64,000 nt of DNA from Ferranicluibacter rubi (GTDB taxonomy: Bacteria > Pseudomonadota > Alphaproteobacteria > Rhizobiales > Rhizobiaceae), in NCBI RefSeq assembly GCF_011603255.1, contig NZ_JAANCM010000005.1, positions 124,001-188,000 of the forward strand. The letters are read 5' to 3'. The translations under genes and the position numbers were made by a program. The notes beneath the pieces were generated by a model. It did not search any database. It worked only from the letters and a program-made list of their open reading frames with translations, and was not told where the DNA came from. Shown here piece by piece: positions 46,819-51,666 of the stretch; position 1 is the first letter of the stretch; each line of letters opens with the position of its first letter.

Positions 46819-46892
46819 AAACTCCGTGACGTCTCTACCTTGGGCGTGTTGCGGTCATCAGGCTTCTCGGTTTGCTGCCGGGATGCTCCACG

Positions 46893-48359
46893 ATGCTGCG
46901 CCGAAGACAGACGGAGGGGTTGCTCTTGGATTATGATGTTGCGGTCGTCGGCTCGGGGTTTTCGGCCATCGCGGTCAGCGTTCACCTGTTGCGGTCGCTG
47001 CCGCCCTCGGCCACCATCGCGGTCGTCGGCGACGATCCGGCCTTTGGCCGGGGCACCGCCTACCGCACCGAGTTCCACCTTCACCGGTTGAACGTGCCGG
47101 CGGGGCGCATGAGCGTCTTCCCGGACGAGCCGGATCATTTCCTCAACTGGCTGGAGCGGCAGGGGCGCGGTATCTCGCGCGACGAGTTCGCCTCGCGCGG
47201 CGATTACGGGCTCTATCTTCGCGATACGCTCGCCTCTCTGCTGAGGGACCGTCATGCGCGCCCCAAACTCGATTTCATCCGGGCAAAAGCGACCGGATGT
47301 GTCCGCTCGCAGGATGACGGGCTGCTGTTTCAATTGGCGGATGGCGAGAGCCTGCATGCGCGGGCCGTAGCCCTATGTCTGGGTGTCGGCACTGCAGACC
47401 TGCCGCTTCGGGAGGAGCGGATCGCAGACGCCGCGCGGCGGCGGCTGGTGCGCAATCCGTGGCGGCTGAAGTGGCTTTCGAAGGTGAAGCCGGACGACAC
47501 GATCTGTATTCTCGGCTCGGGCCTGACGATGATCGACCAGGTGCTGACGCTGCGGGCCCGGGGGCATCGTGGCGTGATCCACGTTCTCTCGCGACGCGGG
47601 CTGGTGCCGCATGCCCATGCCGGGCATCATGGCACGGCCGTGCTGCCGGATCTTCCCGACGACCCTCTGACGATCAGCGGCATTCTTAAGGCGTTGCGCG
47701 CCCAGGTCCGCGCTGGCGCGGAGTGGCGCTCGGTGATGGATGGCCTGCGGCCGCGAACGCAGGCGCTGTGGCAGCGGCTTTCCCCGCCCGAGCGGTCCCG
47801 CTTCCTTCGGCATGCCCTGGCCTGGTGGAACATCCACCGCCACCGTGTCGCGCCGCCGGTGTTCGAGCAGTTCGATGCGCTGCGTCGCGATGGGTCCGTG
47901 AAGGTTCATGCCGGGTTTTTGCGGGATATCGGCATCGACGGAAATCGGCCGTGCCTTGCCTACCGGCCCCGCGGTTTGCAGGATGTCGTGTCCCTACCGG
48001 TCGATTGGGTGGTCAACTGTACAGGCATGGAGCGCGCCGGCATCGGGCATTCGCCCCTGCTGGTCGAAATGGCGGATCAGGGGATCATCGTTCCCGACCG
48101 GTTGGGCCTCGGCTTGCGGGTCGATGAGATGTCGCGCGCCACCGGTGCCGGCGGCGGGGCTCGCCCGGGCCTTTTTGCCGTGGGTGCGCTGACGGCCGGG
48201 CAGTTCTGGGAGATCACGGCGGTGCCGGATATCCGCGTCCAGGCACAGACGGTTGCCGGCGCCATCATCGCGGATACTGCGCTGGTCAAAGCTCAGGCAG
48301 CGCGGCGGAAGGCGAACGTTCTTCCCATGTCCGAGGTGGAGACCAGCCCCATCCGGTAG
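46893..48359 (+). CDS. FAD/NAD(P)-binding flavoprotein (PF13454-like), copy B
   Basis: Second flavoprotein of this cluster, about 488 residues, paralogous to the one at 41241-42719. FAD site DYDVAVVGSGFSAIAVSVHLL near the N-terminus, then HRLNVPAGRMSVFPDEPDHFLNWLER, second nucleotide site ICILGSGLTMIDQVLTLRA, HVLSRRGLVPHAHAG, and WWNIHRHRVAPPVFEQF, all matching copy A in order. ATG 46893 was used; TTG 46926 has a better ribosome-binding site (GGAGGGG, 7 bases away) and would start right before the FAD strand. Its 3' end overlaps the convergent restriction gene by 67 bases. Reaction unknown; sulfur metabolism inferred from context. Confidence 0.75.
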   Translation: MLRRRQTEGLLLDYDVAVVGSGFSAIAVSVHLLRSLPPSATIAVVGDDPAFGRGTAYRTEFHLHRLNVPAGRMSVFPDEPDHFLNWLERQGRGISRDEFASRGDYGLYLRDTLASLLRDRHARPKLDFIRAKATGCVRSQDDGLLFQLADGESLHARAVALCLGVGTADLPLREERIADAARRRLVRNPWRLKWLSKVKPDDTICILGSGLTMIDQVLTLRARGHRGVIHVLSRRGLVPHAHAGHHGTAVLPDLPDDPLTISGILKALRAQVRAGAEWRSVMDGLRPRTQALWQRLSPPERSRFLRHALAWWNIHRHRVAPPVFEQFDALRRDGSVKVHAGFLRDIGIDGNRPCLAYRPRGLQDVVSLPVDWVVNCTGMERAGIGHSPLLVEMADQGIIVPDRLGLGLRVDEMSRATGAGGGARPGLFAVGALTAGQFWEITAVPDIRVQAQTVAGAIIADTALVKAQAARRKANVLPMSEVETSPIR

Positions 48360-51300
48360 AGGGATGCGAGCACGCTGGCGACGGCTGGGCGGATACGCTG
48401 TCCCTGGCGGAACCGGCCTGCAATGTCGGCCGCATCGACGGCACCGCCGCTGGCAATCAAGGCATCGATGACGAGCGCGGTCTGCGCGGCGTCGTCACGG
48501 GCAGGGAAGGCCTGAAGGCCTGCTGCCGCGGCAATACCTTGGGGAAGGCTGAGATCGGCCTCGATCTGCTGCGCCCTTTCGGTTTCGGAGCCAAAGCGCT
48601 CGATCTGGTAGTCCGGGCGGACCCAGCGAACGATTCCACGCTTCTCCTCCCGGGTGCGCTCCCTGTTCAAGGCAACGAGGTGGGCCAGCACGTCGGCTTG
48701 GGGCAGGTCTGCCGACCAGCCATAGGCGGCGGCCACGGCCATATCCAGCTCGTCGTGCAGCTCCCTTAGGATCAGAACGAGACCGTCCTCGAAGATCCGG
48801 CGTTCCCTCGGCTCCAACCGGTCGGGATGCGTGCCGGAGACGATGCGGTCGAGCACGTTGTAGAGGCTGGTCAATGTCAGATGCGGATGGGCTGCGAGCA
48901 CGCGCTTGCGATGGGCATCGAGCGCTTCACTGACACGGCCGATCGGGTTCCGGTGCGTGTCCGCCATGAGGGGAAACGGGAAGGGATCGAAGCAGCGGGA
49001 CTTCGAGTATCGGGGCCTGTCTTCGAGCGTGCCACCCTGCGCGGCCGCCCACATCGCGTGCCAGCGGGACGAGAGGATGCCGAGGACCGCAGAGTCGTCC
49101 GTCGCGATGACGACCAGCATGTTGTCGGGCAGGATATCCGCATCCAGGAACTGGAAGATGCGATGCTTTGCCGTCTCGACCGTGGCGATGTAGCGGGACA
49201 GACCGGCAAGGGCCGGGCGAAGCTCACGGCGGGGTTCGCCGAAGATCCACCAGTTGTCCCGGTAGGTCGCCCTGTTGTTGCGGTCCCGCTCCGGCTTCAC
49301 GGTCAGTCTCAGATGCTGGTAGAGTTCGGGGTAGAACGTGCGCACCTCGTCCTGCGTTCGTCCGAGGAGATCGATGGCCATGACCTCGCGAGGCCGGTTC
49401 GTCAGATCGCGGCCGTTGCGATAGGCCCGGATGTGCGTGTCGAGACCGGCGTGCCTGCCCCGTCCGAGGTGCTCCGCCTCTTTCCGACTGATGATGAAGC
49501 CGGCCCCATGAAGTTTGACGCCGGGCGAGCAGATCCCGATATTCGCCTTCAGGCCACCCGCGGCGGTCACATCGGCGCCGATGGTCAGGTCCGCGTTAAT
49601 CCTGCCGGACGTCTCGCGAAACAGGATCACCGGCGTATCCGTCGCCACGCCGTCTTCCGAGACCACCTCCATCAGCCGTCCTTCCAGCCTGCCCGCTTCC
49701 ACAACGGTCATGGCGATCCGCACGGCGGCGCTGTCGCGCGTGACTTTCGTCCAGGGATGGTCGGGGATCGCCATGACCAGCGAGACCGGCGCTTTGGCGG
49801 CAAGGTACCGCTCCATGACGCGACGCTGGAAGACCTGGCCGATCGAGTTGGTGGTCACGAAGCCGAAGCGCTGGAGGCGGGTGCCCTTCCGGGCCAAAAG
49901 CTCGGCCGACCTGTCCCACCAGTACATGACGAAATCGGCGCTCTCGTTCATCTCAGGGTGCGCGGCCCACAGGGCTTCCGCATAGGCATCGCCCATGCGG
50001 TTGCGCAGGTCCTTGCCGCCGATGAAGGGTGGGTTGCCGACGATGTAGTCGGCGTCCGGCCAGTCCGGCGAACGAGGATTGTCTAGCGACACGAGAACCG
50101 CATCCATGCAGCGGATATTGTGGAACGCCTTGAGAATCGGTTCGGAGGGGATGCCGCCGTTGTTGCGGAAGTGCAGTTGCAGGTGGCCGATCCAGAGGAC
50201 GAGTTCGGCGATAGAGGCGGCGCGGGGGTTGACCTCAAGGCCGAGGAACTGGTGGGGATCCACGGTGTGGCTCTCCAGCCCGTGCAGGGCTTCCTGTCCG
50301 CCGAGATCGTTCAGGGCTTCCAGCACATCGCTTTCCAGCGTTTTCATCAGCTCCAGCGAGACATAGAGAAAGTTGGCGGTGCCGCAGGCAGGGTCGAGGA
50401 TGCGCAGGTTGCAGAGCCGGTCGTGGAAAGCCTGGACGCTGGCGATCGCCTGCTTCTCCCGGCCTTCGGTCTTCTGCCGGTCGGCCGTCGCGCGGATGCC
50501 GGCCCACTCCAGCCGCAAGGGGTCGATGACGGTCGCGATGACCAGCCGCTCCACATAGGCACGCGGCGTGTAATGGGCGCCGAGGCGACGACGGTCGGTC
50601 GGGTCGAGCGCCTGCTCTAGAAATGTTCCGAAAATGGCGGGCTCGACATCCTTCCAGTCGTGGTTGGCCGCGGCAGCCAGTTCGCCGATCTCCTCGCGCC
50701 GGAGGGGCAGGGCACGGCGGTTGCGGAAGAACTCGCCGTTGAACCGCCGCACGGGGTGGCGGATGGTGGCGGAAAAGCCGCCTTCGTCCATCGCCCGCCA
50801 AAGCTCCTCCATCATGCCGGGAAAGATTTCCGGCCGATCGGCGCAGTCCTTCAGCAGGACCTTGAAACTGTTGCGTGGCAGAAGGTCCACGTCCTCGGCG
50901 AACATGGTGAACAGCACACGCATCAGGAACATCGCGACGTCTTCCGTGGGATGGCCCGCCTTCTCCAGTGCTTGGGAGACCTTGGCGATCCGGGTGGCGA
51001 TCTCGCGGGTGACCTTGGCGGCGTGGCGGGCGGGGTCAAGAGACAGCGGATCGGACCAGATGGCGACGAGGCGCTTGCGGACGGCCTCGTCGCGCAGGTC
51101 TTCCAGATAGATGCGGTAGGCGCGTCGGTCCGGGAAGATGTCGTAGGCCTTCCCGTCGCGTCGAAAGTTCGCGTAGATTTCGATGCAGTGGCCGACGTCG
51201 CAGACGAGGAGGAAGGGCGGGGGATCATGATCGGGCGGCAACAGGCGCACGTAATCCTCGGCTTGCGCGCGCGCATTGCGCATCAGCACGTCCCAGGCGC

Positions 51301-51666
51301 GACCGGCTCCGCGCCGGCCGCGGGTCTGCGGCTCCATGCCGGGGAAGGCCAGCATATTCTCTGCGGAGCCCGCCGTGCCGCGCAGGCTCTTGTCGCCGAA
51401 GATCCGGCTTTGCTTGCCTCCAGCACGAAGCAGTCGCGCTTGTAGAGGTCGATCCGGCGGCGCGTGGGTGCGCCTTCGCGGTTGGGCTCGCGCACGACGC
51501 GCTCGAAGACGTAGTCGTTGGCTTCCGTGCTGGCGGCGGCCGGCTGGGCATGGGGCAGGCCGAGGAGATCGCAAAGTTCGGTGAGGAACAGGGCGTAATT
51601 GGCGCGCTCCTGCCCACCTTCCTGTCCCTGCCACCGACGAATGAACGTTTCAACTGCGGACTGCAC
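48293..51666 (-). pseudogene. MmeI-like type IIG restriction-modification gene with a one-base frameshift in the nuclease motif
   Basis: Single-chain restriction endonuclease-methyltransferase. GTG 51666 (AAGGGGG upstream) starts an N-terminal nuclease domain containing D73-x9-E83, the MmeI-type D-x9-ExK pattern. Right after E83-A84 the frame breaks: the codons for KQSRIFGDKSLRG continue in the -1 frame from 51415, so one base is missing between 51415 and 51416 and the K of ExK is lost. The downstream frame stays open to 48293, about 1020 further residues, with methyltransferase motif I LDPACGTANFLY and NPPF (codons at 50024-50035), target-recognition and C-terminal parts. A methyltransferase-only product could start at ATG 51355, but its ribosome site is weak. 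A sequencing error is possible. Confidence 0.8.
51415..51420 (-). other. Frameshift site inside the ExK motif of the restriction gene
   Basis: Minus-strand GAG-GC-AAG: reading GAG GCN AAG would give E-A-K and restore one continuous protein; the third base of the alanine codon is absent. No homopolymer run is present that would suggest simple slippage. Confidence 0.75.

Follow-up and report, generated by a model that had tools for sequence, protein, structure and literature searches.

An MmeI-like gene split over two frames

The window analyzed here is a stretch of 64,000 nucleotides from Ferranicluibacter rubi (contig NZ_JAANCM010000005.1, positions 124,001 to 188,000). Its minus strand carries, from 51666 to 48293, a single MmeI-like (Type IIL/IIG) restriction-modification gene of ~1124 codons, the coding sequence of which is split over two reading frames. 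The N-terminal frame (51283..51666, minus strand) starts with a GTG at 51666, which is preceded by AAGGGGGACGAGC, encodes 127 aa including nuclease residues 1-83 with D73 and E83, and terminates at a TGA (51285-51283). The open C-terminal frame extends from 51634 to 48293 (1113 aa); when read from its ATG at 51355 (48293..51355, minus strand), it encodes 1020 aa comprising the remainder of the MmeI_N domain, a helical spacer, a γ-class methyltransferase, a target recognition domain (TRD), and a C-terminal extension. The methyltransferase motifs DPACGTANF and NPPF are readable in this translation.

The first-pass annotation, which had been made from the sequence alone, described an MmeI-like gene in two frames, with ~1020 open residues in the second; frame reading, Pfam, and PADLOC bear this description out, and the methyltransferase and target recognition part look intact. 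The Pfam domain MmeI_N is divided between both pieces (43.4 and 36.5 bits, with a cut-off of 27), the N-terminal one covering positions 5-73 of the model; MmeI_hel, MmeI_Mtase, and MmeI_TRD all score above cut-off within the C-terminal piece. The best PADLOC model for both pieces is REase_MTase_IIG (PDLC03627; 1136 positions), which matches the C-terminal part with E = 0 (1373.4 bits) and the N-terminal part with 98.9 bits; the only difference considered was the frame break. The C-terminal part also matches the DrmMI methyltransferases (PADLOC PDLC02643, E = 1.9e-82), but the Type IIG model fits the gene better (no search was made for DISARM partner genes). In the PDB, with E limited to 0.001, the C-terminal piece matches MmeI (5HR4) alone (E = 2.6e-39 over residues 118-832), and nothing matched the N-terminal piece up to E = 10.

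MmeI shows the same order of nuclease, helical spacer, γ-class N6-adenine methyltransferase, and TRD. Also, the D-x9-E-x-K spacing of the window gene is that given for MmeI (D70…E80-M-K82) in a passage of PMC4833311, according to which D70, E80, and K82 are catalytic and replacement of any one of them with alanine abolishes cleavage. In contrast to MmeI, which has 919 residues in one frame, the window gene is longer in its C-terminal part and broken. Helical spacer, γ-class methyltransferase, and TRD, as typical for Type IIL/MmeI enzymes, are present in one polypeptide encoded by the C-terminal frame. Enzymes of this family methylate a single strand and cleave at a distance. Of the D-x9-ExK motif of their N-terminal PD-(D/E)XK nuclease, D73 and E83 are there, but the codon for the lysine is out of frame; nuclease and methyltransferase share one frame in five other genomes of the genus (G002-G006), not in the window. 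Thus, the gene is a member of the Type IIL/MmeI family by descent, which is broken at present.

Alignment with 10 relatives confirmed that D73-x9-E83 is followed by a frameshift, by which the catalytic lysine is lost, as had been annotated. Directly past the codon for E83, the window is one base shorter than the relatives, in all 10 of which E-A-K is kept (including that of G001, which is broken further downstream); a comparison with orthologues had been suggested in the first-pass annotation. D73, E83, A84, and K85 are invariant in 8/8 intact rows, and all eight intact relatives contain D-x9-ExK. The missing base had been placed between 51415 and 51416; the loss of one base at ExK is upheld, but it can be placed only to the codons right after E83 (expected A84-K85; 51413..51420, minus strand).

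The gene was found in all seven genomes of the genus, i.e., that of the window (G000) and six others (G001-G006). It occupies one frame in the five mentioned above and is broken in G000 and G001. Because the G001 gene carries its own, independent one-base loss at codon 267, in the spacer (L007:1480-1530), two of the seven genomes are broken at different sites. In G000-G005, the gene is flanked by the same two neighbors, which in the window are a FAD-NAD(P)-binding protein (PF13454; 46872..48359, plus strand) and a member of the aldehyde dehydrogenase family (PF00171; 51910..53460, plus strand). The gene was therefore inherited in place in most of the genus; an exception is G006, where neither of these two neighbors turned up next to the gene. 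At its 3′ end, the restriction gene runs 67 bases (48293-48359) into the convergent neighbor at 46872-48359, and match coordinates in G001-G005 show the same overlap.

Age and authenticity of the break

In the C-terminal part, 32 silent and three amino acid-changing codon changes have accumulated along the G000 branch, compared with 35 and five on the branch of G004, 68 and 18 on that of G005, and 173 and 47 on that of G003. Had this part drifted freely for 5% of the G000 branch, the probability of three or fewer amino acid changes would be P = 0.016, and for 10%, P = 0.001 (assuming a transition weight of 3 and a background ratio of 0.075). Codons 1-83 contain one private silent change and no private amino acid change. 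Judged from codon changes, the two pieces seem to be conserved to the same degree as in the intact relatives. Therefore, the break is either very young or artefactual, or constraint still acts on the C-terminal product.

The first of these options probably applies: a recent loss of one base in a Type IIL gene kept under purifying selection, amounting to ordinary decay at a position hit by chance. A gene that most of the genus carries at a single chromosomal site would have lost one base very recently in this strain, and translation from the GTG at 51666 would now yield a fragment of 127 residues with neither the catalytic lysine nor the methyltransferase. As the fragment would lack both, cleavage would be lost and modification would most likely be lost or much reduced. 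Such joint loss should do no harm because one protein holds both activities, and most likely there was no selection for the break.

The break is thus taken to be real; less likely, it is artefactual. A sequencing or assembly error, which would mean that the strain has one frame and a working enzyme, has a modest chance of being correct. It would agree with the break consisting of a single base, with the genome being a draft of 42 contigs, and with N- and C-terminal pieces both being conserved like those of intact relatives. However, the longest run of identical bases at the site is three, and truly broken relatives are common (see below). To judge the quality of the contig, 381 kb of it were compared with stretches of three sister genomes (G001, G003, and G004). 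The first versions of the out-of-frame test were noisy, owing to shadow open reading frames (ORFs) and over-long 5′ ends. Of 179 G004 genes (213 kb) with an intact frame in G001 or G003, four were out of frame in G000: the restriction gene, two with a disturbed frame in G001 as well, and one with an event at nucleotide 122 (codon 41). Since indels occur there in G001 and G003 too, the latter event probably lies ahead of the true start. When genes were required to be in frame in both other sisters, 1/151 was out of frame in G000; this stricter set cannot include the restriction gene because of the break in the G001 copy. Under the looser rule, queries from G001 and G003 gave 3/170 and 4/124 genes out of frame, the restriction gene being in both lists.

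A protein-level check, restricted to genes that read in a single frame in the query as well as in the two remaining sisters, resulted in 4/190, 1/157, and 2/200 events in G000 (queries G001, G003, and G004, respectively). This compares with 4-5 events in 163-203 genes for G001, 1-2 in 155-188 for G004, and 8-12 in 220-238 for the more distant G003. Beside the restriction gene, the G000 events comprise one common to G004, one in a stretch where three sisters share indels versus G003, the event at nucleotide 122 mentioned above, and one in a gene of 276 codons (at base 86), which is left without explanation. The strongest-looking other event, found with two queries in an ORF of 1405 codons (window ~27038), was dismissed since this ORF is over-long and the event precedes its CarA domain. 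No second clear private frameshift was observed in the genes compared on this contig, which argues against an error. The contig is no worse than its sisters; an error-rich assembly was not seen.

Distribution of lesions among relatives

If the gene was lost by ordinary decay, the position of the break beside the ExK lysine is due to chance, because such genes break often and all along their length. This was assessed with the proteins of eight intact relatives as queries. In a family sample of 394 genomes (Rhizobiaceae, selected by named members), 78 matched the intact G004 protein, of which 20 are distant relatives with matches starting at residue 147 or later, and 58 are carriers of this type of gene. 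Among the carriers, 38 are apparently intact (12 of them judged solely by their match rows, which give the same long frame as open), 16 have a clear break, and four were not classed (three at contig ends, and G028). Samples of the order and the class (397 and 385 genomes, respectively) contributed five further lesions. The first point lesions (n = 17; approximate G004 numbering) are located at 29, 84, 242, 267, 272, 393, 428, 447, 453, 588, 630, 760, 760, 844, 934, 981, and 992. Two of them fall into the nuclease (residues 1-158), versus 2.4 expected by length.

Left out of this count were genes with large internal deletions (G230, G065, and G029) or many lesions (G195), G028, and genes cut by contig ends. 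The N-truncated G292 was scored at its frameshift at 981, and G751, the first 35 residues of which are unmatched, at 453; the lesions of G805 and G914 were placed from match rows in L008 numbering, in agreement with their DNA. The genes of G1034, G851 (flagged with one stop), G733, and G656 (flagged) were open over their length and, hence, contain no lesion, and a search of the genus around G601 yielded no additional one.

A second sample of 80 genome-contig loci, picked by match quality, contained six lesions (at 49, 73, 94, 499, 910, and 945), including one insertion (L029) and one deletion (L090). When both samples were pooled, 5/23 lesions were in the nuclease versus 3.2 expected (P = 0.21), and 4/21 when the insertion and the deletion were omitted (P = 0.34). 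Scoring G292 as a nuclease lesion changed the count of the first sample to 3/17 (P = 0.44).

Several points weigh against a recent loss at a chance position. The data on constraint would agree just as well with an error in sequencing or assembly, or with continued use of the C-terminal product. The collections used contain one genome per species. Taken alone, the six lesions of the second sample are enriched in the nuclease (3/6, P = 0.04), and with G292 scored as a nuclease lesion, the pooled count rises to 6/23 (P = 0.09). Also, 2/23 lesions lie in or near the 13-codon active site span D73-K85 (P = 0.03); one of these two, in the metagenome-assembled genome (MAG) L083, is poorly placed (only to residues 61-73).

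The first-pass annotation had taken the very precise position of the break to suggest loss of restriction under selection, an on/off state, or a sequencing error. Lesions being scattered along the gene in relatives, a conclusion from position to selection was not sustained; the data do not make a good case for the active site having been a target of selection, and a weak hint remains.

Individual loci showed more drastic rearrangements. In L029 (isolate AFS032198; 4126-5979), an insertion of ~1.86 kb interrupts the gene at codon 94, shortly after the ExK motif; the insert encodes an IS1595-type transposase of 440 aa (PF12762 and PF12760), and the remaining gene is open as an ORF of 1036 aa. 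In G029 (L224:3318-4982), an in-frame deletion (approximately residues 342-915 in L011 numbering) has left a frame of 574 aa, containing the nuclease part without methyltransferase and TRD; the deletions in G230 (L215) and G065 (L218) are similar but shift the frame. Apart from lesions, synonymous codons at positions 362-379 are unusually uniform over 77 intact genes, perhaps just because of shared descent.

Possible products of the broken gene

The N-terminal frame ends in the sequence TGATG (51281..51285, minus strand), in which its TGA (51285-51283) overlaps the ATG (51283-51281) of the conserved Met129 in the C-terminal frame; it is a candidate re-initiation site, and this ATG is judged a likelier start for re-entry than that at 51355. 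A one-base loss after codon 85 would reach this stop-start in eight of nine genes intact there; in L011, the overlap uses the preceding methionine, and L006 stops earlier. Of the broken genes, that of L083 (an Altererythrobacter MAG) ends at the same stop-start; those of G200 and L030, broken further upstream, stop before reaching it. NTG-ATG is found at this place in 85/92 listed sites (a few genes being listed twice), and 64/69 leucine codons there end in TG versus 57% expected before control. In 77 intact genes without near-copies, however, leucine codons before methionine end in TG in 57/63 cases here, and in 54/75, 59/69, and 9/16 cases at three other Leu-Met places. With these control places, and with codon conservation at many other columns, the idea that TGATG was selected for re-initiation was dismissed; the protein sequence, together with the codon context, accounts for it well enough.

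That restriction was lost and modification kept, via restart at the TGATG or a start at ATG 51355 and synthesis of a nuclease-less methyltransferase of ~996 or 1020 residues, respectively, is unlikely. In favor of it, TGATG is in the right frame, the product re-initiated there (~996 residues) would lack D73, E83, and K85 but contain spacer, methyltransferase, and TRD, and the C-terminal part shows no relaxation of constraint. Furthermore, a passage of PMC9973331 describes the Bacillus subtilis protein DnmA (YeeA), which is related to MmeI and has no nuclease motif, as methylating DNA and working as an orphan methyltransferase, a natural example of what the C-terminal part could be; DnmA is encoded beside yeeB and yeeC, though, the window gene beside the two neighbors named above. 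The distant relatives in the family sample, several with frames of ~960-1030 residues, may also be devoid of such a nuclease, as suggested by their length only. Conversely, Leu/Met-Met codons account for the TGATG and nuclease lesions are not significantly enriched. Moreover, in Campylobacter jejuni NCTC 11168, a Type IIG gene is split by a frameshift into Cj0031/Cj0032 as in the window; the frameshift was confirmed as real by single-molecule real-time (SMRT) sequencing, and the expected motif was unmethylated, as stated in a passage of PMC3526280. By its sequence, a working stand-alone methyltransferase encoded by the C-terminal part is possible. A wider version, in which one-base losses in the nuclease commonly run into TGATG in relatives, re-initiation is a ready route to an orphan methyltransferase, and the window strain and L083 have been caught on that route, is even more doubtful.

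An on/off state of the gene, as considered in the first-pass annotation, could result from slippage at the break. A Type IIG gene of C. jejuni is reportedly phase-variable. In two Type IIG genes of Helicobacter, homopolymer frameshifts alter activity or specificity, according to a passage of PMC3936762, and both G000 and G001 have suffered one-base losses. Yet, the simple repeat or homopolymer of phase-variable Type IIG genes is absent from the break, with no tandem repeat nearby and no run of more than three bases, and the two losses are ~180 codons apart, that of G001 being at codon 267; a phase-variable switch is thus highly improbable. Programmed ribosomal frameshifting restoring the full protein is hardly credible, as, although both frames are open over ~350 bases and a shift could take place, the codons at and after E83 contain no X-XXY-YYZ heptamer upon reading of the sequence, and the relatives need no shift to read through this region in a single frame. 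Having neither tract nor slippery heptamer, the site was rejected as a candidate for either mechanism.

Recent, ordinary decay of a Type IIL gene remains the favored explanation. Frameshifted Type IIG genes as such are already known; a full-text literature search for frameshifted Type IIG restriction-modification in Rhizobium returned a sole match, which concerned Mycobacterium, and no claim is made on what is unpublished. What the family adds is that fused restriction-modification genes decay often and at many places, presumably without the cost of losing a separate methyltransferase. It also carries a warning: a break at a catalytic residue is striking in a single genome but much less so when seen beside many broken relatives.

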